From Clostridium sp. (GTDB lineage: Bacteria > Bacteroidota > Bacteroidia > Bacteroidales > Muribaculaceae), in the NCBI GenBank assembly GCA_023666615.1, contig JAMPBQ010000012.1:1-42979 (forward strand): 42,979 bases of DNA. The letters run 5' to 3'. Below are positions 11,118 to 26,616 of this stretch, in pieces (within the stretch, counting starts at the first letter, position 1; each line of letters opens with the position of its first letter). The position numbers and the translations under genes are program-made. The notes beneath the pieces were generated by a model. That model saw only the letters and a list, made by a program, of their open reading frames with translations, made no database searches and was not told where the DNA came from.

Positions 11118-11125
11118 TATTTTTG
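11118..11125 (+). promoter_or_regulatory. -7 box upstream of the KilA-N gene
   Basis: TATTTTTG matches TAnnTTTG and lies 27 bases before ATG 11153. No TTTG is found at the -33 position. Confidence 0.45.
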
Positions 11126-11152
11126 CATTTGAATATTATAGACTTCAATCAG

Positions 11153-12054: not shown

Positions 12055-12654
12055 TCACGCCAGGCCATTTTCTTCTAGGGTGGCTACGGCTTGGCGGTAG
12101 GCGGCCAGGAGGGTTTGGTAGGATTTTTCTTTCTTTTGGAGCTCTTCCTGCAGCTGGCTGTAGCGCTCAATCCATTCGCCGGCATCGGACGACGCTTGCG
12201 CAGAGGCCGGCTTCCCCGCGGTCGTACGCACGCTTTGCGATTCTTCTTTCAGGGCCTTCAGGAGGTCGTCGATTCGCGCGCGGCCGGATTCCAGGGTGAC
12301 AAACCGGAGGGGATTGGGGGATGCGTTGGTAGGCGGCTTCAGGTAGGCGTTGATGCATTCAATCATCGTCCAAGGCGAGATGATGTATTCCCGGCATGTG
12401 TCCTTTATGAATCCGTCGAGCGAGCCCTGCATGCTAAGGGAGTTGACGCTTTGGGCAATGCCTGCGGTCTGGCGAAGAAAATCCGCGCCCAATTCGGGCG
12501 TGCAGGACTTCGCGTCATCTTGCTTTTCTGTTTTGAAGGCCTTTAGATAGTCGGAAAATCCGCACTTCGAGCATTTTATGGGCGCGGCGTCGGAAAGCTG
12601 CGGGCGGCATAGGGCCGGCGCTCCGCAGTTTGGGCATTTGTAAATGTTCAGCAT
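12055..12654 (-). CDS. Zinc-ribbon and coiled-coil protein, last gene of the ten-gene operon
   Basis: The 199 residues begin with a zinc-ribbon motif (CPNC at 7-10, CSKC at 28-31). They continue through a helical middle part and end in a Gln/Glu-rich segment (about 160-195) that should form a coiled coil. I recognise no family. The gene overlaps the preceding 293-residue gene by 7 bases, so its translation is probably coupled. Two cysteine pairs and a coiled coil suggest a binding or adaptor protein rather than an enzyme. There is no signal peptide, so it should be cytoplasmic, like the ATPases of the operon. No convincing terminator follows: the 98 bases up to the KilA-N gene hold only weak GC hairpins without a T tract. 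Confidence 0.8.
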   Translation of the reverse strand: MLNIYKCPNCGAPALCRPQLSDAAPIKCSKCGFSDYLKAFKTEKQDDAKSCTPELGADFLRQTAGIAQSVNSLSMQGSLDGFIKDTCREYIISPWTMIECINAYLKPPTNASPNPLRFVTLESGRARIDDLLKALKEESQSVRTTAGKPASAQASSDAGEWIERYSQLQEELQKKEKSYQTLLAAYRQAVATLEENGLA

Positions 12655-13529
12655 AGGCTAATGATCGCTTGTTGGTCGCATGTCAGCAGGCAATAGCCCT
12701 CGCGCTGTGATAGGCGCAAGGTGCCGTCTTCAATCATTTTTATCGATGTTGGCGCTTCGGCCTCCTCTTCAATCATGAAGCCCGCGGCGAGTTCTTGCCG
12801 CAGGGATTGAATGCCGGACTCGATTTTAAACACTGGATTTACCTTGTATGTAAGATTCATCAAGTCAATTTCATACAGCTTTCCTGCGGGATCGGCGTCA
12901 AGCATTGGGCCGGCGAAGCCTCCGAATTTGAGGTCGAAATTGTCGGCATAGGCTTTTGTCAAAGTCGGTTCGGACGAGCTTAGTCCCGAATTTGACTTGA
13001 GATAGCCTTGATAGAGCGCCGTGTCGCTGTGCAGCCATTTGATAGTCTTAACTTTCCCTATGCGGTAAGCCTTATCCTTCGAAGGCAGGATTGCCGGGCC
13101 GCGGCGCAGCTGCATAAGCGCGGGCATTTCTTGCTTTATGGCGAATTGCAGCATTGTCATCACGTCGCCCGGGCGAGCATCTAGAGTATCGTCGTCAAGC
13201 ACGAAAAAATCATTGGCCTGCAGCTTCATCAGCCGCAAAGTCTCGCCTTGCTCCCCGCCTATTTCCACAATGTCGCCATTCCCGATATGCGGGATTGGGA
13301 GTTCGCTTATCGAGGAGGTGTTCGCATCCCTGTTGTTCATCACATTTTGGCAGAACTGATAAAATTCGTTCTGCGAAAAGCCGAATTGTGAAGACGCTAT
13401 TTCCTCCAGCTCCTGGTTTTCGTAGCCGAGGAGCCGGTATTTGGGCATAAGCCGATGGCTCATCTGGTCAAGCGTAACTTCCTTAAAAGCTTTGCCAACG
13501 ATCAAGTCGCGCAGTCTGTCGCTTTCCAT
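12648..13529 (-). CDS. Uncharacterised 293-residue protein of the ten-gene operon
   Basis: No family is recognised. There is no signal peptide or membrane helix, so it is predicted cytoplasmic. The first 90 residues look helical (RLRDLIVGKAFKEVTLDQMSHRL). The remainder alternates short beta-like stretches (GDIVEIGG, TLRLMKLQANDFFVLDDD, RIGKVKTIKWL) with acidic loops, and the C-terminus (GTLRLSQREGYCLLTCDQQ) is beta-like. It is translated just before the zinc-ribbon protein, with a 7-base overlap. The hairpin at 13549-13580 separates it from the upstream gene. Function is inferred only from membership in the operon. Confidence 0.8.
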   Translation of the reverse strand: MESDRLRDLIVGKAFKEVTLDQMSHRLMPKYRLLGYENQELEEIASSQFGFSQNEFYQFCQNVMNNRDANTSSISELPIPHIGNGDIVEIGGEQGETLRLMKLQANDFFVLDDDTLDARPGDVMTMLQFAIKQEMPALMQLRRGPAILPSKDKAYRIGKVKTIKWLHSDTALYQGYLKSNSGLSSSEPTLTKAYADNFDLKFGGFAGPMLDADPAGKLYEIDLMNLTYKVNPVFKIESGIQSLRQELAAGFMIEEEAEAPTSIKMIEDGTLRLSQREGYCLLTCDQQAIISLC

Positions 13530-13548
13530 AGCGCATAGTCATTTTAAG

Positions 13549-13580
13549 GCGCGGCCACCGGCATTGGCTGGTGGCCGCGC
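13549..13580 (-). other. Intercistronic hairpin between the 193- and 293-residue genes
   Basis: A perfect 11-base-pair stem, GCGCGGCCACC with GGTGGCCGCGC, has a 10-base loop. It has no T tract on the minus strand (CTTAAAATG follows), so it looks like an RNA-stability or processing element rather than a full terminator. Confidence 0.75.
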
Positions 13581-13599
13581 GCATTGATGTTGTTGCTTG

Positions 13600-14181
13600 T
13601 CAAGAAATTTCAGCGGGGTCCGTCACCACCCATATGCCATCTATGTACTTGGCTTGGCCCGGGGTGTCGGTGATGGGCTCATTGCTTACGAAGGGGTTGA
13701 AGGGGCCTTCGGCCACCATGCCAACTCCAATGGTCTCCCAATCTTCAATTTCCATGTCGGAGAGGGGAGATTTGATCGTAAACGTTGCCTTTCCGCCGGA
13801 AATGGTGATTTGGAAGATGCCGTTGCTGACGAACTTTTTCGGGTCGAAGCCGGTGTTTCCGTTCTTCTGCACCAAGGCGTCCGCTGAATATTTTCCGTCG
13901 GGGGTAGGAGCATCCGCAGGCGCAGCGGGCTCTTGTTTTGGCTCCTGCTCTATCGGCTTTATGTTGATAGGCTCAGGAGTCACACCCGCCGGCTCGGAGG
14001 GGGAGATGGGCATAGGCGGAACGCCCGCGGGAGCATTGCTTGCCGAGGCATATGCCTTGTCAATGAGCGCCTGGGCGTCAATGGGCGGGAGGCCCAGGTA
14101 TTGGCGTGTCTCGTTCAGGGCTGCAGTGAGGTCTTTCACCATTTGCAGCAGAGGCGCCACTATAGGGGGAATAAATGCCAT
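13600..14181 (-). CDS. Uncharacterised protein: helix, Pro-rich linker, beta-rich C-terminal domain
   Basis: These 193 residues comprise a short helical N-terminus (about 8-48), a Pro/Ala/Glu-rich linker (51-95) and a compact beta-rich domain (97-193). The last part, AKYIDGIWVV (177-186), matches AHFANGAWLI at the end of the neighbouring 197-residue protein. I infer that the two are diverged paralogues serving as adaptors or subunits of one complex. There is no signal peptide, so it is predicted cytoplasmic. Strong hairpins lie on both sides (13549-13580 and 14206-14233), which may set its level separately from the giant ATPase upstream. No database family is recognised. Confidence 0.8.
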   Translation of the reverse strand: MAFIPPIVAPLLQMVKDLTAALNETRQYLGLPPIDAQALIDKAYASASNAPAGVPPMPISPSEPAGVTPEPINIKPIEQEPKQEPAAPADAPTPDGKYSADALVQKNGNTGFDPKKFVSNGIFQITISGGKATFTIKSPLSDMEIEDWETIGVGMVAEGPFNPFVSNEPITDTPGQAKYIDGIWVVTDPAEIS

Positions 14182-14205
14182 TTGGTTTAGTCTGTTAAGG
14201 TTGAT

Positions 14206-14233
14206 GGATGCGGGACTGTGAAGCCCCGCATCC
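14206..14233 (-). other. Intercistronic hairpin between the 197- and 193-residue genes
   Basis: A 9-base-pair stem, GGATGCGGG with CCCGCATCC, begins two bases past the stop codon of the 197-residue gene. No T tract follows on the minus strand. Together with the hairpins at 13549 and 20016, it fills one of the three widest gaps in the operon. Confidence 0.75.
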
Positions 14234-14235
14234 TT

Positions 14236-14829
14236 TTAAATGATCTTCAGGGATATTTTGCCGTCTATTAACCATGCGCCATTGGCGAAATGGGCCGTAG
14301 TGGTCGACAGCGGCACGATGTTCTTCACATCCTTGTTTTGGATGTCGCAGTCGAAAGAATTCATCAGGCTTCGCGGGTCTGACCCCACAAAGTTTGGGAT
14401 GCAGAGGGTGTTGAATTCCACGTTGGCCTGTGTTTGGCTTGTGGGGGTCACAATAAGCATGGCGTTGTCCTTGTACCGCTCGCCCACGGTAAGGAGCACC
14501 GGGCCTTCAAGGTTGGCGTAGAATGAGGCTGGCGCTGCGGGGCTCTGCGTCTTGGCGGGGCTTTTGGGAGTGGCGGGGCTGTCGATATTAAAGACAGGAT
14601 ATTCCTCGCTGTGGCTTGCCGCAGAGGCTTGAGCGCCTTTTGCCGGCATGCTTGCGCACCTTTCCTCCAACGCCTCAAGCTTTTCGCCTATGGCCTCGAT
14701 TTCCGACAAGATCTTATTCTGGCAGGCTGCCAGATTCTTGAGTTTCTTTTCCAGAAGCTCAAGAATCTCCAGCTTGGCCTTTTCTATGTCTTGCTTGGTG
14801 GATCCGCCCAGAAAGTCTTGGATAGCCAT
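14236..14829 (-). CDS. Uncharacterised protein: coiled coil, Ser/Pro/Ala linker, beta-rich C-terminal domain
   Basis: These 197 residues contain an N-terminal coiled coil (about 12-58, with EILELLEKKLKNL heptads), a low-complexity linker (61-102) and a beta-rich domain (103-197). The end, AHFANGAWLI (179-188), parallels the 193-residue neighbour. The gene starts three bases after the stop of the 1193-residue ATPase, so the two products are probably made together and may bind each other. It is predicted cytoplasmic. No known family is recognised; the layout suggests a scaffold or adaptor. The segment MAIQDFLGGSTKQDIEKA at the start could be a short docking helix, but that is speculation. Confidence 0.82.
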   Translation of the reverse strand: MAIQDFLGGSTKQDIEKAKLEILELLEKKLKNLAACQNKILSEIEAIGEKLEALEERCASMPAKGAQASAASHSEEYPVFNIDSPATPKSPAKTQSPAAPASFYANLEGPVLLTVGERYKDNAMLIVTPTSQTQANVEFNTLCIPNFVGSDPRSLMNSFDCDIQNKDVKNIVPLSTTTAHFANGAWLIDGKISLKII

Positions 14830-14832
14830 GGC

Positions 14833-17800
14833 TTAAGCTTGGTCAAGGTCAAACAATGAGCCCTTAAGCATCCAGAAGAACAGCGAGTCCTTGATTTGGC
14901 TTTGGTTCGCGCCGTCGCCGATGGGCCTATTGATGTTGCTCATTTCCTGGAATGAATCCCTTGCGTGGCTCTTCAGCCTCTTGGAGAGGGTTGCGGGCAG
15001 CGGATGGCTGGTTTCCACTTTCTGGAATTTATCCACAAAGTCGTCGAAGTATTTGAACACCTTCTCCTCAAACTCCTTGTCGCCAAGGTCTTCCCATGTG
15101 ATTCTGTTGCCCGAGGCGTAGCCGTCGAATCCAAGATGGCGCAGCTGCTTGGGGTAGTCGTCGCGCTTGATTTTCTCAATGGAGTATAGCGCGGCTCCCT
15201 CAGCGGTGACATCCTTCGGATTTTCAGAAAATTCCACGGAGAATCCTTCAGGAATATTGTCAATGCCAAAAGCCTTGAAGAGGTTGGCGGTGTACTCGGT
15301 GAGCTTGCGGTTGCCGTCTAGGCCGAACAGGATTGGGATATACATTGAGCCGAAGCCCGTGAAGTTGATCTTGCGCGGGAATTTCTCGGCCATGCCGCCC
15401 TGGTCAGCCTTGATCCAGTTGGCTATATGGTAGATCAGCGCGGCATAGTGGAGCTGAAGCACCTTGAACGCCTCGCTGTCCTTGTCGGCGTTAAGGGCGT
15501 CAAACAGCGCGTGGCCCGAATCCTTGAGCAGGAAGTTGATTTTTTCCTTGCCCGTGTAGTCAATGTTCCCGTATTGGGTGATTTCTCCTTCGTTGAGCTT
15601 AATTATGGTCTGATTTGAGAATTTGCTGTCGGCAAAGCGGGTGAATACGTTGTTGTCCTGCGGCACTTGGCCCAGGCCTGTGCGCTTGACGTTCTCATAT
15701 CCGCCGCCCCAAAGGTCGTCGCCGGCAAACCTCACGGAATCATATCGTGACACAATCTTTCCGCCATAATTGGCGTAATACTGCAGGTCGGTGGTGCCGC
15801 CGCCGATGTCGACATTGAGAATGCCGGCCGACTGCCTTGCGCCGTCCTTTATCATCTTGTATGCCGGAGCCAGGGATTCAGCCACCGTGTCGAAGGTATC
15901 CCTTTCGGCTTCCTGGTCAAACACAGTCTTGAAGGCCTCCTTCCATACGTTGATCATGCCCGTTACGTTAGACATGGCCAGCGGGTAGGTGATGATGAAC
16001 TTTGGCGGGGTCTTGAGGTTCACGTCTTCCTGCTGTATCCAGTGGTTGCGCACCATCATCAGGATTTGGGTGAAGAACAGGCGCGCCGTAGTCTTGGCCG
16101 GGCCTGCGCCGACGCTCTCCTCAAATTGCCATTTCAGCTCATCGTTGTAGTTGTACTTCCCGCTCTCAGCCTTGGAATACTCCTTAGAGAAGTGGAATCC
16201 AATGGAAAGATTGTCAAATACCTTGGCCGACTCCTTGATTTCGTCGAAAGACCTCGACACCACTGTGCGTATCGGGAAGGAATATTCCTTGTCTACGAAG
16301 GTGGGGTAGAATAGGCGGGCTTGGTCGTTGAGCGTCTTTCGGCCTTCAACGTTTGTGCCGCAGCCGTAGATGTGGTCCATGAACTTGGAGAGGTCAACCA
16401 TCGCCTTGTTAAGCTGGTTGGTCGACGAATGGCCCGGCTTCAGGGCTTGCACGGGAGTGGCGGCCAGGTATTGCGCCTGCGCCTTCAGCTCTTCGGTCTT
16501 GAAGCTTTGTTCGGTTTTGGGATCAATCACCTTGTTGTCGGAGGATACGTACGACACGAATGCCACATGGGTGTTTGTTGTGCCGAAGTCGATGCTGTAC
16601 TTAAAGCTGCGCGAGCCAGACTTGGGGCCTTTCTCCCAGATGGGGAAAATCATGGCTCCGCCCACTTGGCGGCCATTGTCCATCACTCGCACCTGCAAGC
16701 CTTCAAAGCCCTTCATCACATCATAGAAATATGCCTTGTGGCGAAGGCTGCCCTTGTTTTCGGTGAATCTCTCTACGCCATTTGCGTCAAGTCCGGTGAG
16801 CTCTCCATTGCCCACGGTGTAGAATCCGAGGGTAATGTCTTGCGACTGGTCATCGAGGTTGGATGCCTGCAGAAGCACGTTGTACTTGTCGCTGATGGGC
16901 GCCGGCGCGGTGTTTCCATTTCCATTTAGTCCTTGGTTTGCTTCGGCGAAGCGAACGAATGGGCTGATGCCCACTGAAATGGCGTCTTTTTTTCCTGACT
17001 CGGGAGCCGCGGTGTCGTAAAGCGATGTGTAAGGATTGTACAGTTTGCGGAAGATTACGTCGCCCGTGGAGTCTCCATTAAGGTTCTTTATGGGGATGCG
17101 CAGGGTGATCTCAATCATGCCTTTGTTCTCATCCTTGTCAACAATCCGGAATTGGATCAGCTCCTTAAGCCTGTCAACGGTGAAGAAGCGCAGAAGCAGC
17201 GGCTTGATGGGCAGAAGGTAGCTTACGCTCGGGCCGTCGGGCGTGGTGGAGGGCACGTTTATTGCTCCGTAGAACTTTGTGGTGTCTACGATATATGGCA
17301 GCTGTATCAGCTTGTCCTCAAGGAAATCGATTTCAGTAATCCATGGATGGCGGATGCCTGAATTGTCGGGAAGCTCACGCTTTTTATCGTAAGGAATGCC
17401 CTCAATTTGCGGAATCTGCATGGATTCGTTGAGCCTTACCTCGTCATGTAGGTATTTCACCTTGTAGCTGTTGGCGGTTAGAGGAAGGACCAGCGGGGTG
17501 TCAATGGCATTGAGGTCCTGCACATTGGAGTTGATGTAGAAATCGGAGACGAGTTCGCCTTCCTTGCGCATGAACAGGTACAGCTCTATATCCTTAAGCG
17601 TGGCAATCGATATTTCTTCTTTGTTTACCGTGAGCTTGGTGTAAGAGTTTAAGAAGCTTTGGTAAGAATATTCCGGGCTGATGCTTAGCGATTGAGGATT
17701 GAATCGGTTCTTTACCCTATTCAACACGGCCTCCATATATGTTCTTAGTCCGCTGAATTGATCCTTGGTTTTTGGATCTTTGATGACGCCTGCTCTCTTT

Positions 17801-18414
17801 AGCGCCACATAAAGGCGGATCATGAAATTCTGAAAGTCTTCCTTGCGCTCAAGAAGCGACAGCACAGGCTGCCCGCTGTTGTAGTTCGGAGCTGTGTAAA
17901 CGAAGGTGAAAGGCGAAGTGCCGCCCATAAGCTGGCCATTCTCATCGAAAATCAGATAGATGTTGTCTGTTCCCTGGAGATAAGTGTCCATATGCACCTT
18001 CAGGGCTTCGGCCAGGTGCGCAAGCCTGGGATTGCCATTGCGGTTTGACTTTAGCTTTTCCGTCTGCGTGTCGACATTCCATTTTACGTATTTCAGCCGG
18101 TCGCCTTTGCGGAATATCATCTCAAGGAGGTCAAGCCATTGTGATACTGACTTGCTGTAGGTAGTAATCTTCCTTGAGTCTATGTTTATGATATTCAAGA
18201 GCGCTGAGTTGAAGAAGAGGGCTCGAGCGAATATGGTTGGAATCGACGATGCGGGCTTGTTGGCGAATTGCTGCGCATTGTTAAGAGGGTCATTGTCAAG
18301 CATTTTCCCCTCTTTGTCCTTGCAGTAGTTCTCTGAACCAACGCCTTCGCTCAAATCCACGATGCCGGGCGCCTGCTGCGGATCATCGATATTTGTTTGT
18401 TTTGTGAGAATCAT
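14833..18414 (-). CDS. Giant protein with C-terminal Hsp70/actin-like ATPase domain (1193 residues)
   Basis: This is the largest protein of the operon. Residues 1-600 form a region of no recognised family, with helical and beta segments and no transmembrane helix. From residue 605 an Hsp70/actin/sugar-kinase ATPase is evident: phosphate 1 motif SIDFGTTNTHVAFV (Asp609), phosphate 2 motif NVDIGGGTTDLQYY (Asp869), and adenosine-type motif FTGFGSMYIPILF (about 1017-1029). All three motifs are intact, so ATP binding is likely. The long N-terminal extension differs from chaperone Hsp70, which has its ATPase first. The SrfB family (Pfam PF07520) consists of similarly large actin-fold proteins and is the first comparison to make; I cannot confirm it. 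The start overlaps the stop of the tubulin-like gene (ATGA), which means tight translational coupling. Confidence 0.85.
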   Translation of the reverse strand: MILTKQTNIDDPQQAPGIVDLSEGVGSENYCKDKEGKMLDNDPLNNAQQFANKPASSIPTIFARALFFNSALLNIINIDSRKITTYSKSVSQWLDLLEMIFRKGDRLKYVKWNVDTQTEKLKSNRNGNPRLAHLAEALKVHMDTYLQGTDNIYLIFDENGQLMGGTSPFTFVYTAPNYNSGQPVLSLLERKEDFQNFMIRLYVALKRAGVIKDPKTKDQFSGLRTYMEAVLNRVKNRFNPQSLSISPEYSYQSFLNSYTKLTVNKEEISIATLKDIELYLFMRKEGELVSDFYINSNVQDLNAIDTPLVLPLTANSYKVKYLHDEVRLNESMQIPQIEGIPYDKKRELPDNSGIRHPWITEIDFLEDKLIQLPYIVDTTKFYGAINVPSTTPDGPSVSYLLPIKPLLLRFFTVDRLKELIQFRIVDKDENKGMIEITLRIPIKNLNGDSTGDVIFRKLYNPYTSLYDTAAPESGKKDAISVGISPFVRFAEANQGLNGNGNTAPAPISDKYNVLLQASNLDDQSQDITLGFYTVGNGELTGLDANGVERFTENKGSLRHKAYFYDVMKGFEGLQVRVMDNGRQVGGAMIFPIWEKGPKSGSRSFKYSIDFGTTNTHVAFVSYVSSDNKVIDPKTEQSFKTEELKAQAQYLAATPVQALKPGHSSTNQLNKAMVDLSKFMDHIYGCGTNVEGRKTLNDQARLFYPTFVDKEYSFPIRTVVSRSFDEIKESAKVFDNLSIGFHFSKEYSKAESGKYNYNDELKWQFEESVGAGPAKTTARLFFTQILMMVRNHWIQQEDVNLKTPPKFIITYPLAMSNVTGMINVWKEAFKTVFDQEAERDTFDTVAESLAPAYKMIKDGARQSAGILNVDIGGGTTDLQYYANYGGKIVSRYDSVRFAGDDLWGGGYENVKRTGLGQVPQDNNVFTRFADSKFSNQTIIKLNEGEITQYGNIDYTGKEKINFLLKDSGHALFDALNADKDSEAFKVLQLHYAALIYHIANWIKADQGGMAEKFPRKINFTGFGSMYIPILFGLDGNRKLTEYTANLFKAFGIDNIPEGFSVEFSENPKDVTAEGAALYSIEKIKRDDYPKQLRHLGFDGYASGNRITWEDLGDKEFEEKVFKYFDDFVDKFQKVETSHPLPATLSKRLKSHARDSFQEMSNINRPIGDGANQSQIKDSLFFWMLKGSLFDLDQA

Positions 18415-19994
18415 CTTGGATTGGTTCTATTGGTGACTTCAAGCACGCGGTCCAGCATCTGCTGCGTCGCCTCGCCGGCATACTTGAAAAACATTAGTTT
18501 GTTTTGGCCCTTCAGGTGCTCCTTGTTCTTGTAATTGTTATAGATCTTATTCAGCACCGCGTTGATGCTGACGTCTGAATCATTGTCAATTACGTTGGCA
18601 AGGCCTCCAAAAAGCCCGGCTTTCCTTTTGTTGGTGAGGTCTACGAAGAGCTTGCCGTACCCTTCGGAGAAGTCGAACAGGCGCAGGGGATGCATTGGGT
18701 TCTCCAATTCTTTGGCCCATCTTTTGAATTCATCGAGGAATGAGAAGAGCCTGTTCATGAATTCGGTCTCATCGCAGAAATCAGACTGCGTGGGCGCGGC
18801 CCACACTACACTCTTGCCCCATTTCTTCTCGGTGCGCAGGAACGTGTCGCAGTAGGTGGTGAGAATGGCCAGGCGGCAAAGCGGGTCGATGTAATCATTG
18901 CGCAGGGTCTTTTCCGGGAATGAGTCGTAGTTGAAGGGCTCGGCCATTTCCTCGCCTCCGGCGGATTCCGACACGCCTCCCTTGTCGGTAAGCTTCACCA
19001 CATGGAATTTGTGCTCGGGAAATTCATTCTCAAATCGGCTGAAGTCCATGATGCACATTGCGGCCAAAAGCTCGGCGATGTGGGCGTCGTTCTTTTGGCT
19101 CTTTCCGCCCTCGCTGTTTTCGTAGGCCTGCGATGCCAGGCGGTCGCCCACATAATAGATTGCGTCGGCAAGGCTGTTCACGCTCTTGTCTCCGCCCTGC
19201 TTGTAAGCGTCGAATGCCGCTTTTGTCTTTGATAGGAAGGTGCTTGAGCTGATGGCGCTCTTCTTGTCCTTCTGCACTTCGAAATAGGGCTCCATGGCCA
19301 GGATGCCCACCTTGGTCGTGGGGCTGCCTTTCTTTATGGCTTCAAGGATAACCGGAATGCCCGATGCGCCTGTGCCGCCGAACACTGAGCCTACGATCAT
19401 CACGCGGGCGTTGTCCGACATGTTGATGATGTGGGATATCTCCTTGCTGTCCTGAAGGTCGCGCATCACGATGCAGCCGATGTTGGGGCAGCCCTTGAAT
19501 CCTACCTTAAGGTTGAGGTTGAGCTCAGCCAAGTTGGAGTCGGAATCGCTTGTGTCATAGAGGCTCTGCAGAAGGAGGCTTGTCGCCTCGGTGCCATTGT
19601 CGGCGTTTATCGACTCATATCCGACATAGTCGGCGAAGGTGGCCTTTGTGTCCACCGGGTTGAGGTACACTTCAAAGCGGGTGGGGTAGCCCGAATCAAT
19701 GCGGTTCACTTCAGTGCCAAAGAAGAAGTTGCGGATGTCCTCTTCCTTGTTCTTGCATCCGTAGGCCTGGTCATGGATCCACTTGTAGCGCATGAGGAGG
19801 TCTTGCGTGCGGTTGGTGTCGCCGTTGTCTATGTCATAGTCTATTATCACCGGCACCACCTCATTTACTGAGTCGGAATCCCTCTCGCCATTCTCATTAG
19901 GCTTGTTTACGCCGGCGCCGGCGGCCATGAGCATGGTGAGCGAGCGGAGCACGCGGGCTCCGGTGCCGCCGATTGCTAATACGTATGTCTTCAT
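18411..19994 (-). CDS. Tubulin/FtsZ-like GTPase (527 residues)
   Basis: The protein opens with YVLAIGGTGARVL (residues 4-16), like the first nucleotide-binding loop of the tubulin/FtsZ fold. It contains VGSVFGGTGASG, with GGTGASG at 206-212, the equivalent of the tubulin signature GGGTGTG. Length and motifs fit the Tubulin_2 group (Pfam PF13809) and the FtsZ-like families that have been proposed to act in membrane remodelling. The usual catalytic T7 motif NxDxxD of FtsZ is not obvious, so polymerisation-driven GTP hydrolysis is uncertain. It shares a 4-base ATGA overlap with the 1193-residue actin-fold ATPase, so the two are probably made in fixed ratio and may interact. It is predicted cytoplasmic; the membrane link would come from the three-helix protein encoded upstream. 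Confidence 0.82.
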   Translation of the reverse strand: MKTYVLAIGGTGARVLRSLTMLMAAGAGVNKPNENGERDSDSVNEVVPVIIDYDIDNGDTNRTQDLLMRYKWIHDQAYGCKNKEEDIRNFFFGTEVNRIDSGYPTRFEVYLNPVDTKATFADYVGYESINADNGTEATSLLLQSLYDTSDSDSNLAELNLNLKVGFKGCPNIGCIVMRDLQDSKEISHIINMSDNARVMIVGSVFGGTGASGIPVILEAIKKGSPTTKVGILAMEPYFEVQKDKKSAISSSTFLSKTKAAFDAYKQGGDKSVNSLADAIYYVGDRLASQAYENSEGGKSQKNDAHIAELLAAMCIMDFSRFENEFPEHKFHVVKLTDKGGVSESAGGEEMAEPFNYDSFPEKTLRNDYIDPLCRLAILTTYCDTFLRTEKKWGKSVVWAAPTQSDFCDETEFMNRLFSFLDEFKRWAKELENPMHPLRLFDFSEGYGKLFVDLTNKRKAGLFGGLANVIDNDSDVSINAVLNKIYNNYKNKEHLKGQNKLMFFKYAGEATQQMLDRVLEVTNRTNPR

Positions 19995-20015
19995 TTAGTT
20001 GTTTCCTTAATGTGG

Positions 20016-20043
20016 CGGATTGGCCCGTTCAAGGGCCAATCCG
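20016..20043 (-). other. Intercistronic hairpin upstream of the tubulin-like gene
   Basis: A perfect 11-base-pair stem, CGGATTGGCCC with GGGCCAATCCG, has loop GTTCAA. It lies between the membrane protein gene (stop at 20059) and the tubulin-like start at 19994. No T tract follows on the minus strand. Confidence 0.78.
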
Positions 20044-20058
20044 TTATGGTAATGTTTC

Positions 20059-20598
20059 TTACGGGCGGTAGACGCCGGGGTGCGGTATGTTCACGCCATG
20101 CACGGAGAATCCGTTGAACAGCAGTGAGAAGATGTAGAAGAGGATGAGCGTGAGCACGAAGTTGGTGATGCACAGGCGGAAGATTACGGGGCTTGTGAAC
20201 ATGCCCTTGTCAAGGCCCTTGTGGATGTTTGCGCGGGCGCTGTCAAGCTCAGTGATGTCCATGGCCTGGGTCTCAACCTTTTCCTGGTATTTCAGCTCGA
20301 TGGCGTGGCGGATGCCGGCCTTGGCGGTCTTTTTCTGGTACATGCCTGTGGCGTAGCCTGTTACGGCGAACGATACGCAGGATGCCACCACCATGGTGCA
20401 GAGCCATGTGCCAATCTTGGCCCATGAGTATGAGTTGCGGCAGAAGAGGTAGTAGATTACGGCGAACACGAACGCTACGCCAAGAGCCACGAGGAATGCG
20501 GCGGTGAATCCTCCTTCTTTGTCGAAGTAGAATTTGAAGGCGTCCAGCTTGTCGCTATAGGCCTTGCAGTCAGTCACTAAGAAATACAGAAATTTCAT
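20059..20598 (-). CDS. Small membrane protein with three predicted transmembrane helices
   Basis: These 179 residues have hydrophobic helices at about 30-52 (FTAAFLVALGVAFVFAVIYY), 61-84 and 139-162. A charged segment of about 55 residues (85-138), with helix-forming phrases such as IELKYQEKVETQ, lies between helices 2 and 3. No family is recognised. It is the only clear integral membrane protein of the operon. It sits between the vWA lipoprotein and the tubulin-like GTPase genes, so I infer that it anchors the cytoplasmic NTPases to the inner membrane. Topology is uncertain, but the basic residues after helix 2 favour the middle loop being cytoplasmic. Confidence 0.82.
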   Translation of the reverse strand: MKFLYFLVTDCKAYSDKLDAFKFYFDKEGGFTAAFLVALGVAFVFAVIYYLFCRNSYSWAKIGTWLCTMVVASCVSFAVTGYATGMYQKKTAKAGIRHAIELKYQEKVETQAMDITELDSARANIHKGLDKGMFTSPVIFRLCITNFVLTLILFYIFSLLFNGFSVHGVNIPHPGVYRP

Positions 20599-20637
20599 GA
20601 TTCAAAGGTTATTTGGTTATTATTTTTTGTTTGTTCT

Positions 20638-21933
20638 TCATTCGTCGATTTCGCCGGCGCTCCAGTCAATGGTGTAGGTTTCGGGGCCGAATACGAGGCT
20701 TGTCGATGCTCCGGTCACGCCCTGGCGAAGGCCTTCCACCAGGTTGGCGAGGTTGAATGTCTGGGCCGATGTGGCGGCGATGCTCTTGTCATTGTCGCAA
20801 TTCGACTCCATCACCCATCCCGGCAGGGCGTCGTTGACGCGCAGGGTGAATTTGGGCGAGGTCAGCTCCTTCACTTCCACGGGAATAACCACGCGCCCGT
20901 TGCTGACTCTTATGGTGGAGGGGTCCACGGGCTGGCCGTCCATATCTACGGCCACAGCCTTGCGCACGGCCTCCTCATCCCTAAGGTAGGTGGGAAGAGC
21001 TGCGGTGGGGAAGGTGATGCGCATGCGTGCGTACCTTGTTCCGTTCTTCTCAATCACGTCGTCCTCTGAGGGCTTGGCCTCAAACCTGTGGCCTGAGCGC
21101 TGGCTGCCGCTTACGCTGGGCACCACTTGCGCCCCGGATTTGGTGATTTGCAGCGAATGGGCCGGGGTGAATCCCGAAAGGCTGTTGGAGTCGGCCTGCT
21201 TCACCAGCTCGGCTATGTCGTATTCGGGGCCTATGGCTATTGCGTATAGTGGCCGCTTTCCCGAGAATTGCGACTGTCCGTTGCTGTAGTTGTAATATGT
21301 CCCATTGAAGTCCACGGGGAATTGGAATAGCGCCACTCCATACCCTCTCTTTGCCAGGGGAATAAGGGCCTGGTCGATGCGGTTGCGCAAAAGCGGCGCG
21401 TTCACGCGGTTGAATTCGCTGTTTGCCCTGATTTCAGCGTCGCTTCCGCTCAGAATTCCGTCGGTGATGAAGAAGCTGAGGGTGCGGTGCAGGGTGTCGG
21501 CCGTGGCCTGCTTGTCGATGGCCTTGATGAATTGGTCGAGCTGGTATGCGTCGGTGTAGCCCAAATTCTTTGTGGCCAGCTGTGTGGAAAGGGTGTTGAA
21601 GTCATATTCCTTCACCTCAGTGCCGCGGGGCCCCTTCTGCGTATAGAAGGCGCGCAGCGGAGCTTCGCGGTATTTTGTCTGGATGGCGGCCAAAATGTTG
21701 GTGAGCTCAGCCGCGCTGCCCGTTTTGGGCGCGTAATATCCCCTCATGCTTGAGGAGTTGTCAAGGTATACCGATACCGAAAGGGGTTCGGCCGGCTTGG
21801 CTGGAGCGGCGATTCCTGAGGCTATGCCATCTTCTTCGTTTTCATTGTCGTCGTCTCCTCCGCCGCAGGACATGAATGCTCCTGCCGCGGCGCAAAGGCC
21901 GACAATCGCTGAGATTAAAAATTTGCGGTTCAT
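20638..21933 (-). CDS. vWA-domain lipoprotein with intact MIDAS
   Basis: This 431-residue exported protein has a lipoprotein signal with the lipidated cysteine at Cys23 (AFMSC). Directly after it, GGGDDDNENEED is an acidic run of the kind that sends Bacteroidetes lipoproteins to the cell surface. A von Willebrand factor A domain follows: VYLDNSSSMRGYY supplies the MIDAS DxSxS (Asp58, Ser60, Ser62) and FFITDG supplies the later Asp158. Metal-dependent ligand binding is therefore likely. The region after about 270 is beta-rich (GRVVIPVEVKELTSPKFTLRV). It is the only exported soluble part of the operon and may carry the ligand-sensing or surface end of the machine. The D-rich stretch could also leave it in the periplasm. 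Confidence 0.85.
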   Translation of the reverse strand: MNRKFLISAIVGLCAAAGAFMSCGGGDDDNENEEDGIASGIAAPAKPAEPLSVSVYLDNSSSMRGYYAPKTGSAAELTNILAAIQTKYREAPLRAFYTQKGPRGTEVKEYDFNTLSTQLATKNLGYTDAYQLDQFIKAIDKQATADTLHRTLSFFITDGILSGSDAEIRANSEFNRVNAPLLRNRIDQALIPLAKRGYGVALFQFPVDFNGTYYNYSNGQSQFSGKRPLYAIAIGPEYDIAELVKQADSNSLSGFTPAHSLQITKSGAQVVPSVSGSQRSGHRFEAKPSEDDVIEKNGTRYARMRITFPTAALPTYLRDEEAVRKAVAVDMDGQPVDPSTIRVSNGRVVIPVEVKELTSPKFTLRVNDALPGWVMESNCDNDKSIAATSAQTFNLANLVEGLRQGVTGASTSLVFGPETYTIDWSAGEIDE

Positions 21934-21976
21934 ATTATAGGTTTTATTTTTTTGTTTGCGTCAAATGGTTGGGGGG

Positions 21977-23029
21977 TTACGCGAATTTTGATACTACGGG
22001 CTTGCGCTGCGTTTCGCCGTCGTCGTAGCCTACGAGGTACAGGTCTACTATTGTGTCAGGCCCTGCGTGCGAGGCTATGTCGCTTACGAATGTGTCGATG
22101 TTCCGCACTGGCTGGCTGCTGTGGCATTCGGGGTTGAAGTCCTCTTCGAAAAGCCTGGGGCGGCAAAGGTCGATTCCGGCATAGGCCAGGATGTCCTCAA
22201 GGCTGATGAACGCCCTGTCGATCAGAGGCATGTCAAGGCCGGCATCCTCAAGGGCCTTGCGGCAGAACGGCACTTGTCCGTAGGCATAAAAGCGCGCGAG
22301 CACATTGAGCCAGTTGGCGCTTGATGACTGCAGGCATTCGAGGAACGCCGCCCTCACCTTTGCGCGCAATGACGTGGGATCGGCGCTTGAGGCCTCCATC
22401 GACGCCCGCAGGTCTACGATGAAGTCGTCCAGCCCATATGAGTCGTTGGCCATGATTTTGTCTGATATGGCCCTTGCCACAGGGCTGTCGGGGTCTGCGC
22501 CGATGTAGGCGTCGCGCACGGCCATCACCCTCTCCATGAAAGCGTCGAACATTTCGGCGAATGCGCCATAATATTGCTTCAAGGCATTGTCTCTTTCTTC
22601 AAGGTCGTCGCTGTGCTCGTTGGCCATGGACAAAAGCTCGCTTTTTTCTGCTTTCCAGGCCTCGGCCAGCGCCTCTTTTTCGGCCATTGCACGGTCGAGG
22701 TCCTTCTCCATTTCAAGGTGCATGTTTTCGATGCGCGTCTCATATTCGGCAATCAAATTCCGCATTTCTTCTTTATGCTCGGCCTGAAGGCGGTCAATCT
22801 GCGCTTCATATTCGGCGGCTTCGTCGGGCCTTTCGTTGAATCCGTCAATGTCTATTTCGAATGATTCGGATTGCGGAACCTGCTCCACGCTCTTTTGTTG
22901 GCATTCGCTAAGCTTTTTCGCCAAAGTGTCCAGGCGGCGCGCGCTGTCTGGAAACAGTAGTTTGAGAAGAACTGGAGTCTGATGCTGCTCCTGATCATCA
23001 TAGGTGTTGGTTGATAGGTCGTAGTCCAT
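21977..23029 (-). CDS. Coiled-coil protein of the ten-gene operon (350 residues)
   Basis: There is no signal peptide or recognised family. Residues about 68-155 are a long Glu/Lys/Arg-rich coiled coil (EYEAQIDRLQAEHKEEMRNL). This is followed by a helical domain (about 155-290) and a C-terminal part with DFNPECHSSQPVRNIDTFV. The gene starts 14 bases after the stop of the 1141-residue ATPase and precedes the vWA lipoprotein. It is probably a cytoplasmic scaffold or a partner of the ATPase; grpE-like and other coiled-coil cochaperones are neighbours of Hsp70 elsewhere, but I see no GrpE signature here. Confidence 0.82.
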   Translation of the reverse strand: MDYDLSTNTYDDQEQHQTPVLLKLLFPDSARRLDTLAKKLSECQQKSVEQVPQSESFEIDIDGFNERPDEAAEYEAQIDRLQAEHKEEMRNLIAEYETRIENMHLEMEKDLDRAMAEKEALAEAWKAEKSELLSMANEHSDDLEERDNALKQYYGAFAEMFDAFMERVMAVRDAYIGADPDSPVARAISDKIMANDSYGLDDFIVDLRASMEASSADPTSLRAKVRAAFLECLQSSSANWLNVLARFYAYGQVPFCRKALEDAGLDMPLIDRAFISLEDILAYAGIDLCRPRLFEEDFNPECHSSQPVRNIDTFVSDIASHAGPDTIVDLYLVGYDDGETQRKPVVSKFA

Positions 23030-23043
23030 TGCTGTGAAGGTAT

Positions 23044-26000
23044 TTATGGCTTGGCCTTGGTCGACATCATGGGCCAGAGGCTCATAATGTTGCTTTCGCT
23101 GTTAATGTCAATCTTTGTATGCACCGTGGGCTCGCTTTCCAGCCCGTTGACGCGGAGAATCAGCTCGTTGCGGTCGTTCACCATGATGCTGATGTGGGTT
23201 TCCTCGGGGTTGGGGAATGACGATGTGCTGAATTCCGACATCACGGTTATGTATTCGCGGTTGCCTTTGTTCCATTCCCGCTCGGTGTACGAAAGGGTGC
23301 GGTTGGGGTCCGTGGGTGAGGGGATGTTGGCCAAATAGGTCTGCACCAGGGTTATGGTCGAGGAATTCTTCAGATTCACCACTTTTTCCGGCGTGGAATA
23401 GGCCTTGACTGTCATGCCCTTGTATCTTTTTTGCCCGATGGGGGCGCATTCGTATGGATTGAATATTTCGAGGTATTTCTCCTGTCCGGCCGTGTTTCGG
23501 TAGATTATGCCGTAGCAGGCGGTTATTGTGTCGCTCTCGAAGGCCTCATCGTTGTCGCGTGCGTATTTTGTCACATAGTCCAGCGCCCCTTCGACCACTA
23601 CGGTCTTGGCCTTGTCGAAAGCATCGCCCTGGTCGGCCGCGCTGCCTATCTCCACAATTTTCATATCCGCCGCCTGGTATTTTCTCAGGGCCTGGGCCAA
23701 GGCCAGCCGCAGGGGCTTGAGCTTTGTGCTGCGCCCCGATAGGAGCACAGTGTCTATCTTCATGTCTTCTTCCCCGATGTTCTTCGCCTTCTTGCCGTAG
23801 AATCGGAAAAAGTTGACAATCAATTCCTCTGTGCAAGAATTGATGTAGGCTTTGAAATCAGGGTCTTCAAGGATATCCTTTATTATGTCGAACTCCATCT
23901 TCTCCCGCAGGCCCCAATTAAGGTTGCGTTCAAGGGTGAACTGGCTTTCGCCGTCGCTAAGCAGGGGCTTCACCTTGTTCTTTACAAATTCCTTCAGTTC
24001 AAACGCGCGAATGAGGCGGTCGGCGTCGTTGCCTATTTTTTCTGGGTCGGTGAATGCCGCCAGCGATGGCGCCTTTTTGCTCAGGATTCTCGCCAGCAGG
24101 CAGTCAAGGTAATTTCCGGCCTTGGCGATGCCCATCTTGCCGAATACGTTCACATGCGGCGTGTCGTTTTCAACGGTGCGCGTGAACAGCGTGAGGTCCA
24201 GCGTGCCGGCCCCCATGTCGTACACCAGCACGCGCTCCTTGTAGTGGAGGTCTTTGCCCCGTTGCCTCTGCAGCGGGGCATTGATTTTCGCCCAATTTGA
24301 CTGGTAGAAGCATGCCACGGCGTCGCTCTCGCTCACGAAGCGCACGTTGCGAAGGTGGGTGTGGCTGAAGGCCTCGCGCACTATTTTCTCTATGCGTTTG
24401 ATGTGCTCGGGGGTGTAAGTGTTGGGTATCGTGAGCACGATTTGGTTCAGCCGGTCGGTGGCTTGCCGGTCGTTGAGGGCGGCGGTGATGTAGTACCTGA
24501 AAAGCTGACGATACACCTCCTCGAAGATTTTGTCCACGCGTGCCAATGGCGTTGGCTCGGCTTCGCCTCCATTTATGCTTTCCTGCAGCGGCATGCGCCG
24601 CGGCTGGCCGCTTTCGGGGTCGATCGCGGTGTAGGAATATCCGGCATAGTTTTGGATGTTGGGCAGCAGGTCATAGCCCACGATCAGCTTGAGGTAGGGG
24701 AGGGCGGTGCGTATGTTGGCGCGCTCGGTGTCGGAGGTGGGCGATAAGCACAGCGCCATTTGGTCGAAAGCCTCGGCGTTGGGATTGTCGCTGCAGAGCT
24801 GTGACAGCTCTTGCCGCCCCGCGCTTTGCCGAAGGGTGAGGTTGGACGACAGGAACGGCGTACCCTTTTCGTACGTGTCGGTGGCGTAGTCGGAGAAGAG
24901 CGAACGCTTCACCTTGTGCAGGTCTATCAGCTTGCCGTCGTATTCGCTGACTATCGCCGATGTGCCGAAGTCGATGGCCAGCCATTCTTTAGGGGGCATT
25001 TGGTGGGTCGCCACCCTCAGGGTGCATTCAAAATGCCGCGAGTTGGCCTCAAATATCCCCGGCACATCGTGGTCGCCGGCGGTGTCTATGTAATAGTCAA
25101 ACCTCAGCTTCACGGGAATAGTGGCGTTGTAATTGCGCTCCCCCGAGCCGGTCTTCACATATAGCTCGTTGATTTTTGAGAATGACAGCTCCAGCTTCAA
25201 GTCATGCGAATTGTTAGGCGCGCTGGGCAGGAATATTTCGCGCTCGGCTCCGCTGAGGCTGATGAAGCCCGTATCGCCCTCGGAGTATTCCGCATGGCAA
25301 TTCTTGGGCATCACTGTCTCGATGGAAACGTTGCGCACGCTGATTCCCGCCTTTGGCTTGTCGCTCTTCGTGGCGGTGTTTGACAGCCCTATGTAGAATA
25401 TCTTTTTAAATGCGGCGCCGGGCTGGAAGTCAACGCGGGGCAGCGGCACGATGCCCCCGCTTGCGTTGGCCGACCATGCGTCGCCGTCAAAGTTGTCGCG
25501 CACTTTCACCCTCAAGTCCGCCTCGGTGGCGTTTGGGACGATGGCGATTTCAGACGAGTCGGACTTTACCTGCTTTTTGCCTGGCTGGTCCGGATTGTAG
25601 GCCTCTACTGTGGCAGAGATTTCAAAGTCGATATGGCCGCCGGGGCAGTCTACGGGATTGGGCATCTTGGAAAAATCGGCGTAAATAGGCACCTCGGCGC
25701 GCCATGTGCCCTGGTCTCCGCGCTGCATCGTCTGCAACCCCTTGATAAGGGTTTTGCCCGTGGGCAGGGCTTGCGCCATGCTGCCAAGCGCCCCGCCGAA
25801 GTCGGCGAATATTGCTCCCGGCTGTATGCCCGGCGCGGCGGATTTGGCCTCGAACGCGCATGCGCAGTCGATGGCGGGCTCAAAGAGCGACGACCCTATA
25901 TTGCTGATGATGATGCGGCCAATGTTTTTGGGGCCGGAGTCCATGGTGTAGGGGGCGCTCGCCACGCTCTCAACCAGGACATAAGGCTTGCGCAGCTCCC

Positions 26001-26469
26001 TTATCATGGTGAACGGCACCGTGATCGCGCGGGTCGCCGATTCCTTGCCTCGCTTCAGCTCCAGCGTAATCTCAACAGGAAAGTCAGCTCCAAAGGCGCC
26101 CTGCCGGTCGCAGTCGGTGATGGCACCGGGGAATATCAGCAGCCTCGCGGGCGTCTCTTTCGCGCTCAGCCGCGCCTTCACGCATTTTCCCGGCGCCAGG
26201 GGCGTCGGCTCGCCATCGCCTATGGCCACGGCCAAAAGCTTGTCGGGCGAGAATTTCAGCGCCTGTGAGGGGTCAGAGATGGATACGGCTTTTAGCTCTA
26301 TGTCGCTTGAGTAGGAAAACGAAAAGAACCCCTTGTCGATTGTGATCGCGAGATTGATGGGCACAGGCATGATTCCCCTCGGATAATTTGTGACGTGGGC
26401 GGCCGTGGGCTTTAGGTCTACAAATATGCGAGGGTGAGCGCTGGTGCTCGTTTCTTTTATCGCAATCAT
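23044..26469 (-). CDS. Giant protein with Hsp70/actin-like ATPase domain (1141 residues), first gene of the operon
   Basis: Residues 1-490 are beta-rich, with repeated phrases such as PVEITLELKRGKESATRAITVPF, suggesting tandem beta-sandwich domains. An Hsp70/actin-fold ATPase starts at about 495: phosphate 1 WLAIDFGTSAIVSEYDGK (Asp500), phosphate 2 RVLVYDMGAGTLDLTLF (Asp751), and adenosine motif VLLSGRSTKLKPLR (Gly912). A further beta-rich tail of about 140 residues follows the ATPase. The overall plan, a large N-terminal region with a C-terminal actin-fold ATPase, parallels the 1193-residue protein of the same operon, though the N-terminal regions look different. There is no signal peptide, so it is cytoplasmic. 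As the promoter-proximal gene it is likely made in the greatest amount. Substrate and partners are unknown. Confidence 0.85.
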   Translation of the reverse strand: MIAIKETSTSAHPRIFVDLKPTAAHVTNYPRGIMPVPINLAITIDKGFFSFSYSSDIELKAVSISDPSQALKFSPDKLLAVAIGDGEPTPLAPGKCVKARLSAKETPARLLIFPGAITDCDRQGAFGADFPVEITLELKRGKESATRAITVPFTMIRELRKPYVLVESVASAPYTMDSGPKNIGRIIISNIGSSLFEPAIDCACAFEAKSAAPGIQPGAIFADFGGALGSMAQALPTGKTLIKGLQTMQRGDQGTWRAEVPIYADFSKMPNPVDCPGGHIDFEISATVEAYNPDQPGKKQVKSDSSEIAIVPNATEADLRVKVRDNFDGDAWSANASGGIVPLPRVDFQPGAAFKKIFYIGLSNTATKSDKPKAGISVRNVSIETVMPKNCHAEYSEGDTGFISLSGAEREIFLPSAPNNSHDLKLELSFSKINELYVKTGSGERNYNATIPVKLRFDYYIDTAGDHDVPGIFEANSRHFECTLRVATHQMPPKEWLAIDFGTSAIVSEYDGKLIDLHKVKRSLFSDYATDTYEKGTPFLSSNLTLRQSAGRQELSQLCSDNPNAEAFDQMALCLSPTSDTERANIRTALPYLKLIVGYDLLPNIQNYAGYSYTAIDPESGQPRRMPLQESINGGEAEPTPLARVDKIFEEVYRQLFRYYITAALNDRQATDRLNQIVLTIPNTYTPEHIKRIEKIVREAFSHTHLRNVRFVSESDAVACFYQSNWAKINAPLQRQRGKDLHYKERVLVYDMGAGTLDLTLFTRTVENDTPHVNVFGKMGIAKAGNYLDCLLARILSKKAPSLAAFTDPEKIGNDADRLIRAFELKEFVKNKVKPLLSDGESQFTLERNLNWGLREKMEFDIIKDILEDPDFKAYINSCTEELIVNFFRFYGKKAKNIGEEDMKIDTVLLSGRSTKLKPLRLALAQALRKYQAADMKIVEIGSAADQGDAFDKAKTVVVEGALDYVTKYARDNDEAFESDTITACYGIIYRNTAGQEKYLEIFNPYECAPIGQKRYKGMTVKAYSTPEKVVNLKNSSTITLVQTYLANIPSPTDPNRTLSYTEREWNKGNREYITVMSEFSTSSFPNPEETHISIMVNDRNELILRVNGLESEPTVHTKIDINSESNIMSLWPMMSTKAKP

Positions 26470-26573: not shown

Positions 26574-26616
26574 GCAATTTGTCGCGAAATATCAATGTTT
26601 TTTGGCGAAATATGCT

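Follow-up and report, generated by a model that had tools for sequence, protein, structure and literature searches.

The window analyzed here, a 42,979-nucleotide stretch of DNA from a gut bacterium (assembly GCA_023666615.1, contig JAMPBQ010000012.1, positions 1 to 42,979), contains an operon of ten open reading frames (ORFs), all on the minus strand and spanning 12055-26469, and within this operon lies a conserved unit of four genes that encode, in order, an exported vWA lipoprotein, a protein with three transmembrane (TM) segments, a tubulin-fold GTPase and a giant actin-fold ATPase. Research on bacterial tubulins is usually kept separate from research on bacterial actins. Our comparison of relatives demonstrates that the tubulin and the actin-fold ATPase are a near-obligate genetic pair in two phyla, Bacteroidota and Cyanobacteria, and that the core is a real, conserved, cross-phylum system. 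The ten genes are as follows, with g10 at the upstream end; the spacing of neighbors ranges from an overlap of 7 bases (g2/g1) to a gap of 70 bases (g3/g2).

g10, 23044-26469, minus strand: Hsp70-like ATPase of 1141 amino acids (aa), accessory
g9, 21977-23029, minus strand: coiled-coil protein of 350 aa, partner of g10
g8, 20638-21933, minus strand: exported vWA lipoprotein of 431 aa, core
g7, 20059-20598, minus strand: three-TM protein of 179 aa, core
g6, 18411-19994, minus strand: tubulin-fold GTPase of 527 aa, predicted divergent relative of Tubulin_2/FtsZl1, core
g5, 14833-18414, minus strand: actin-fold ATPase of 1193 aa, core, its start overlapping the end of g6 by 4 bases
g4, 14236-14829, minus strand: 197 aa, coiled coil and shared C-terminal domain
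g3, 13600-14181, minus strand: 193 aa, proline-rich linker and shared C-terminal domain
g2, 12648-13529, minus strand: 293 aa, C terminus probably a diverged copy of the shared domain
g1, 12055-12654, minus strand: 199 aa, zinc-ribbon-like N terminus and coiled coil, accessory

A core conserved across two phyla

We compared 43 loci, namely the window and 42 loci of relatives, 5 of them found on IMG/VR contigs and 6 in plasmid records (L and G numbers are our handles for loci and genomes; the short copies L001-L011 are excluded from the counts). Among the 22 genomes of the class that gave matches, 20 were compared, the window's own genome being counted as the window and G442 being excluded at a contig edge, as G064 was from the locus comparison. 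Since L030 and L031 are near duplicates and L015, L016 and L018 are close strains, the 43 loci do not represent 43 independent events. The ATPase gene lies directly downstream of the tubulin gene and on the same strand in 42 of the 43 loci, two of these ATPases being truncated by contig ends (852 aa in L027 and 332 aa in L038), so that the core does not display the scattered and rarely adjacent homologues for which the first-pass annotation, made from the window's sequence before this analysis, had allowed. A g8-family gene is found just upstream in 33 of 43 loci, a figure that undercounts contig ends, the divergent L014 and L012, where operon calling stopped, and a small TM gene directly precedes the tubulin gene in 32 of 43, a number that pools three clusters without shown homology.

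The pairing also holds when approached from the other side. A profile search of the phylum with the ATPase found it in 12 of 395 genomes (own genome included), and all 12 carry the tubulin gene next door; eight of these genomes had already been met through the tubulin, and four were new. Moreover, the tubulin and ATPase trees are congruent over 40 loci (Mantel r 0.94, with 0 of 2000 permutations as high). A single-sequence search detected tubulin relatives in 9 of 80 related genomes and a profile search in 10, and 22 of 395 genomes in the class had them (all three counts include the window's own genome); further ones were met in one Muribaculaceae metagenome-assembled genome (MAG), an oral Prevotella record, five cyanobacterial plasmid records and IMG/VR contigs. 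In all five cyanobacterial records a three-TM gene is followed by the tubulin gene and then by the ATPase gene, and a vWA homologue is encoded ahead of the TM gene (on the divergent strand in Gloeothece). Phage records gave no match to the tubulin of the window or of L033, and the viral contigs scanned with the L041 tubulin and with g10 held no relative.

The four core proteins

Family searches of the ten window proteins returned almost nothing above curated cut-offs. The tubulin-fold protein g6 matches PF00091 at E 7.2e-6, under the curated cut-off, and PF13809 (Tubulin_2) at E 0.031 with 14 bits against a cut-off of 27, which it does not reach; members of the g6 family from 2 of 12 genomes or records do exceed the PF13809 cut-off. 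In alignments whose rows we selected among the loci (16 each for the tubulin and the ATPase, 17 for the vWA protein), G9, G10, G12 and the motif S203-x-FGGTG are invariant across the g6 homologues, and g6 thus carries a tubulin-type GTP-binding core with T1 and T4 glycine loops. The best 50 of 1433 Foldseek matches (E up to 10) are all tubulin, FtsZ, CetZ or microtubule entries, weak as these matches are (best E 1.1e-3, none at 0.001 among the matches listed). Judged from its sequence, g6 is a diverged relative of Tubulin_2/FtsZl1. The part past the GTPase domain spans about 200 aa according to a weak model and shows neither an extended coiled coil nor a helical C-terminal domain. Hydrolysis on polymerization requires the T7 catalytic loop, with the motif NxDxxD/E, and by eye no such loop was recognized after the H7-like helix of the g6 alignment, where the structure model is weak, which leaves polymerization of g6 doubtful. 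The tubulin gene of the closest relative (L012:10001-11587) has an in-frame stop, either a real loss or a MAG error, and the L012 row rests on the part of the gene after this stop.

In g5, an N-terminal extension of 600 aa stands ahead of the actin-fold part, in which D609, G611, D869, G871, G872, D876, G1020 and G1022 are invariant over 16 homologues. A profile of these homologues matches MreB (E 3.7e-5) and Hsp70 (E 7.8e-5) among PDB sequences, and the top Foldseek ranks are likewise occupied by MreB, ParM and Hsp70 (best E 2.5e-6, from a low-confidence model); single-sequence family searches with g5 and with g10 gave weak actin-family matches. The AlphaFold models of g5 (7 alignment rows, mean predicted local distance difference test score, pLDDT, 44.8) and of g6 (6 alignment rows, mean pLDDT 52.6, low confidence) are weak, and therefore we use the fold class alone and no finer detail. 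The first-pass annotation had pointed to ATPase motifs in two proteins of more than 1100 residues; these motifs are indeed conserved in the homologues of both g5 and g10, of which g10 proved to be an accessory.

The exported component g8 carries a lipobox cysteine (C23) and a metal ion-dependent adhesion site (MIDAS) made up of DxSxS and a later aspartate, in agreement with the earlier description of an exported lipoprotein with an intact MIDAS. Its only Pfam match is a weak one to vWA-TerF-like (E 0.038), and no PDB sequence matched. Across the aligned homologues the lipobox cysteine and the later aspartate are each present in 17 of 17, and the strict DxSx[ST] motif is present in 8 of 17. The Bacteroidota and cyanobacterial vWA clusters are homologous by profile comparison (hhalign 91.5% and 98.1%, the latter with E 1e-13), and in both phyla the g8-family gene is placed two positions before the tubulin gene.

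Between g8 and g6 lies g7, in which a simple hydropathy scan gave three peaks, near residues 28, 62 and 135, and so confirmed the three-helix membrane protein that had been described. Its cluster has 22 members, 21 of them immediately before the tubulin gene (position -1), and two other clusters at this position have 6 and 5 members, the latter being cyanobacterial. The 6-member cluster resembles that of g7 in position and TM character, with homology not detectable.

Shared domain, added modules and genomic setting

A domain of about 100 residues is shared by the C termini of g4 (residues 90-195) and g3 (residues 87-193). When the ten window proteins were searched with a retest profile of 25 domains, from which the window and L012 rows had been excluded, g4 was found at an independent E value (i-E) of 6e-7 and g3 at 1.1e-6, and a profile including these rows gave 9.5e-18 and 8.6e-17. 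Residues 187-274 of g2 reached an i-E of 6.6e-4 with the profile lacking the window and L012 rows and 67% with E 5.2e-5 in hhalign; an earlier profile that included those rows did not list g2 and gave only 0.3 for its homologue in L019. The g2 C terminus is thus probably a diverged copy of the domain. For the other seven window proteins the match to the retest profile was 2.2 or worse, or unlisted. The statement that three of the proteins have no known family therefore stands for Pfam only, as g3 and g4, and more weakly g2, share this domain. Proteins carrying it lie downstream of the ATPase in 22 of 43 loci by profile search, and a weak similarity to it (86.9%, E 4.2e-6) is seen in the cyanobacterial downstream paralogues. 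Proteins of relatives that carry the domain often also have a TM segment and a coiled coil, and this arrangement suggests that it is a docking end on a stalk. One shared-domain gene is followed by genes for an SH3_3 protein and an L,D-transpeptidase (L099:10209-12112), a link to peptidoglycan. The last gene, g1, has zinc-ribbon matches at E 8e-5 to 6e-3, below cut-offs.

The view that all ten genes form one unit could not be maintained, since homologues of g2-g1 occur in three loci (window, L012 and L019) and the g10-g9 pair in five (window, L012, L021, where g10 is split into two ORFs, L022 and G032, in which contigs break and the order g10-g9-g8 stands at the end of another contig, L096). 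The Hsp70-like/coiled-coil pair is accordingly a local accessory and not part of the core. In g10, an N-terminal region of about 490 aa is followed by an actin/Hsp70-type nucleotide-binding domain and a tail, and its motifs D500-x-G502-x-S-A and DMGAGTLDLT are invariant in 4 homologues; PF00012 was not listed for g10 at E 1, and homologues reach 0.026 and 0.035. Its match to the PADLOC model PDC-M61B (E 3.1e-10) is the one notable PADLOC match of the window proteins; the literature searched does not mention PDC-M61. Relatives of g10 were found in 5 of 80 genomes (own included; the match in G057 is partial), all five being tubulin-positive. The GrpE match of g9 is weak (E 6.6e-4), lies over a coiled coil and is not diagnostic; g9 homologues reach lengths of 773-836 aa in L021, L022 and L096, and the L012 copy was confirmed by tblastn. 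A different HSP70 (PF00012 E 2e-30) stands at +5 in L033, and a 2217-aa ORF with an Hsp70-like stretch (L097:4103-10756) shares its contig with the L023 tubulin locus (G057).

Some relatives carry a putative motor in place of such a pair. The operons of 8 of the 43 loci encode a MotB/OmpA-like protein and, before it, a MotA/ExbB-like protein that has TM segments and a long tail; PADLOC ZorB models matched all four MotB/OmpA-like proteins that were scanned (best E 2.9e-18), ZorA models matched 4 of 6 candidates (best E 7.5e-10), and the PF01618 cut-off was exceeded in one ZorA-like protein, that of L045. An intramembrane aspartate is present in all eight members of the ZorB-like cluster, and the ZorA-like protein of L049 itself ends in the shared domain. 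In L102:2828-14197 (G729), a locus from a distant lineage of the phylum that was met by the ATPase-first search, a ZorB-like gene (PADLOC ZorB3 E 1.8e-27) precedes the vWA gene and a ZorA-like gene follows the ATPase gene. Within 20 control regions (240 kb) of tubulin-positive genomes, neither motor hidden Markov model (HMM) matched at E 1e-3, nor did the tubulin, ATPase or shared-domain HMM, and the vWA HMM gave one weak match (2.2e-4). Because the PADLOC ZorB1 model also matches the E. coli and B. subtilis genomes, we speak of ZorAB-type stators and not of Zorya. The window itself has no ZorA/ZorB pair, PADLOC yielding only coiled-coil matches of g9, and the ZorB-model matches of its own genome are on other contigs. 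ZorC, ZorD and ZorE had no PADLOC match among the ten window proteins and 20 accessory proteins scanned, other accessory genes not being scanned.

One locus of the window's genus carries a different addition: in L028:7415-12919 (G029) the ATPase gene is followed by one gene without an assignment, a DO-GTPase2 gene, a gene with a weak GAP1 match and a second DO-GTPase2 gene (PF19993 E 8.4e-9 and 1.9e-5; GAP1 E 0.002-0.009, below cut-offs). Of 80 genomes, 5 have DO-GTPase2; the tubulin is present in 3 of these, but only in L028 do the two share a contig. Pfam gave neither DO-GTPase nor GAP1 among the ten window proteins, and PF19993 had 0 matches at E 1e-5 in the window's own genome, in which GAP1 was not sought genome-wide. 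Other genes of relatives' operons encode OmpA-type proteins, a retropepsin-like aspartyl protease (L042:16205-16777, PF13975 E 1.8e-17, in a cluster of 4 with L041, L043 and L046) and, in L030, a DUF4357 protein.

Several features of the setting bear on mobility. A relaxase gene and an integrase gene lie directly upstream of the cassette in L032:4935-7949, terminase and resolvase genes lie upstream in L033:53-7688, and the tubulins of the window's genus fall on several separate branches, with two divergent copies in G022. The mobile neighbors, plasmid locations, scattered branches and paired copies fit horizontal spread, for which the G+C content of the operon (54.4%, against 48.3% and 51.3% on its sides) is weak evidence. 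A gene with a KilA-N domain (window 11123-11956) and one of the GH25 family (window 26631-27335) flank the operon, and ARAGORN found no tRNA in the window. Upstream of g10 are two 15-base direct repeats, 21 bases apart (window 26578-26613), which could be a regulator site or chance, and none were found downstream of g1, these being the two stretches searched. The first-pass annotation proposed one candidate promoter at the start of the operon; a consensus scan gave 17 promoter-like sites against 9.6 expected, with a sigma-70 consensus, which is not the promoter type of Bacteroidota.

Interpretation and comparison with known systems

Our results lead us to read the operon as an envelope-anchored nucleoside triphosphatase (NTPase) machine that most likely serves as a horizontally spread system of envelope surveillance, in defense or conflict, and not in housekeeping, a reading that we place first with slightly less than even confidence. 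The vWA lipoprotein g8 would sense or clamp a target on the outward-facing side of the envelope, and the three-TM protein g7 would relay this; on the inner face, the tubulin-fold GTPase g6 may act as a switch or polymer controlling the actin-fold ATPase g5, which would then perform the work. Shared-domain proteins, which are coiled-coil or proline-rich stalks in the window and membrane stalks or a ZorA-like motor tail in relatives, would dock onto this complex, to which the addition may be the Hsp70-like/coiled-coil pair in the window and a proton motor or DO-GTPase/GAP1 proteins in some relatives. Surveillance or defense is favored by the patchy distribution of the core and by its presence on mobile elements. 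More tentatively still, and with some doubt on our part, the core could be an undescribed envelope-spanning surveillance machine in which the tubulin/actin-ATPase pair is joined through the three-TM protein to the vWA lipoprotein, and into which ZorAB-type motors, Hsp70 pairs and DO-GTPase/GAP1 proteins are plugged through one docking domain; if this is true, a single, larger modular class would embrace both the Zorya-type motors and the tubulin/GTPase conflict systems.

The idea of an envelope machine had already been put forward in the first-pass annotation, and it is upheld for the NTPases, the membrane protein and the exported vWA protein, which recur in order across phyla with the lipobox retained and with motors in some relatives; it does not extend to all ten genes. 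The same annotation took the lack of an effector as an argument against defense. Its observation stands for the window, and its argument is weakened by the ZorAB-type motors, the one DO-GTPase/GAP1 module and the mobile carriage.

A number of points weigh against our reading. Neither a nuclease nor a toxin nor any other effector was recognized in the window proteins, and the core proteins have no convincing PADLOC match. At E 1e-15, 15 PADLOC models matched 90 flank proteins and 9 matched 90 control proteins, overlapping models included (random samples from 157 flank and 143 control ORFs of the same 10 genomes); a defense-island context was thus rejected for lack of a clear excess, and we do not use it as support. 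Contact through g7 is assumed, and the cyanobacterial genes at position -1 have no detectable homology to g7, sharing with it only position and TM character. Of the 17 vWA homologues, 9 no longer have the strict MIDAS, six of these nine having glutamate for the first aspartate, and the structure models of g5 and g6 are of low confidence. Two of the six ZorA-like candidates are without a ZorA match at E 0.01, and some of the matches lie in coiled coil. For the DO-GTPase/GAP1 link there is a single adjacent case, and its GAP1 scores are weak. Finally, one tubulin locus (L052:1076-2602, G197) is solitary and has no adjoining ATPase gene.

Among the alternatives, the one that survives best is a membrane remodeling or vesicle system, in which the tubulin- and actin-fold proteins would polymerize on the inner membrane and reshape it. 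Kinship with Tubulin_2 speaks for this, as do the vWA, membrane and OmpA-type partners in relatives, which recall the operons of PMC2875224 as far as the portions of that paper considered here describe them. We nevertheless regard it as unlikely, as a sporadic and mobile distribution is ill-suited to a basic cell function and no T7-type loop was recognized by eye, which makes polymerization doubtful. A still less probable explanation is an envelope stress or secretion chaperone complex, with the Hsp70-like g10 and the ATPases folding or moving an exported substrate and g8 as receptor. The co-occurrence of g10 with g9 in 5 loci, the other HSP70 of L033 and, in L099, the downstream genes for SH3_3 and L,D-transpeptidase proteins would be in keeping with such a role, but g10 accompanies few tubulin loci (5 of 80 genomes), and no recurring transporter or substrate gene was seen across the mapped operons.

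An inheritance system of a mobile element, with TubZ/ParM-like partition, seems very improbable to us, in spite of the combined tubulin and actin folds, the plasmid location in cyanobacteria and a KGGVGRT protein in the L023/L097 neighborhood, seen at its N terminus, which we take to be ParA-like. Exported lipoprotein and membrane genes recur in the loci, the Gloeothece plasmid encodes a ParA and a ParB of its own, and the two stretches searched in the window offer a single pair of 15-base repeats on the upstream side of the operon and none on the other. A chance neighborhood of unrelated genes would explain why accessory genes differ between loci, but it is already refuted for the core by adjacency in 42 of 43 loci and 12 of 12 genomes and by the congruent trees, and its probability is negligible.

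Turning from these alternatives to described systems, the envelope-surveillance reading has to be set beside several relatives in function or fold. The nucleotide motifs and fold of g5 and g10 are those of the MreB/ParM/Hsp70 ATPases, from which g5 differs by its 600-aa N-terminal extension and by a tail that is apparently not long enough to hold an Hsp70 substrate domain. A suggested comparison with SrfB (PF07520) did not hold up, as none of the ten window proteins had this family among its matches at E 1, and SrfABC identity was rejected; a genome-wide SrfB search was uninformative, being silent in controls too. The first-pass annotation knew of no described system with this gene set, which is too strong, since the parent kinds are published, in the parts considered here, in PMC2875224 and PMC7159879. 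What stands is that no report of the core of tubulin, actin-fold ATPase, TM protein and vWA protein was found in the literature, a search that did not cover most subscription papers and non-PMC preprints, and that the core is not described in the portions considered of PMC9871819, PMC11090510, PMC5898192, PMC12839542 and PMC12505986.

The Zorya system (PMC11890865, in the parts considered) resembles our relatives in the pairing of a MotA/ExbB-like long-tailed protein with a MotB/OmpA-like protein, for which ZorA and ZorB are the best PADLOC models. Unlike Zorya, these loci show no ZorC, ZorD or ZorE among the proteins scanned, the window lacks the motor pair, and a tubulin and actin-ATPase core is added. 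Kaur et al. (2020; PMC7159879) describe, in the portions considered, GAP1-N2 GTPase-centric conflict systems with tubulin, membrane vWA, HSP70 and GrpE, and the window resembles these in its tubulin, its vWA protein, its Hsp70-like/coiled-coil pair and a predicted action near the membrane. It differs from them in lacking their defining DO-GTPase and GAP1, both of which the relative L028 has, GAP1 weakly.

Closest in layout are the FtsZl1/vWA operons of Makarova and Koonin (2010; PMC2875224), which include OmpA-type proteins and for which membrane remodeling was proposed. The available portions of that paper describe, as we find here, an FtsZ-like protein beside a vWA protein, some of the latter exported or membrane-bound, with membrane and sometimes OmpA-type proteins and a patchy spread over many phyla, and the vWA protein encoded in the same operon, a mark of FtsZl1, is present in the window. 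An extended coiled coil, together with a helical C-terminal domain, is present in most FtsZl1 proteins, of which the type protein has 1051 aa, in contrast to the roughly 500 aa of the present family, and the main text portions name P-loop GTPases and kinases in those operons and no actin-fold ATPase. A reviewer asked in that paper how a cytoplasmic FtsZ-like protein works together with exported vWA proteins, and the core makes this question testable, the link perhaps being the three-TM gene between the two. The common core would, moreover, connect two predicted or known conflict systems, the Zorya motors and the DO-GTPase/GAP1 systems.

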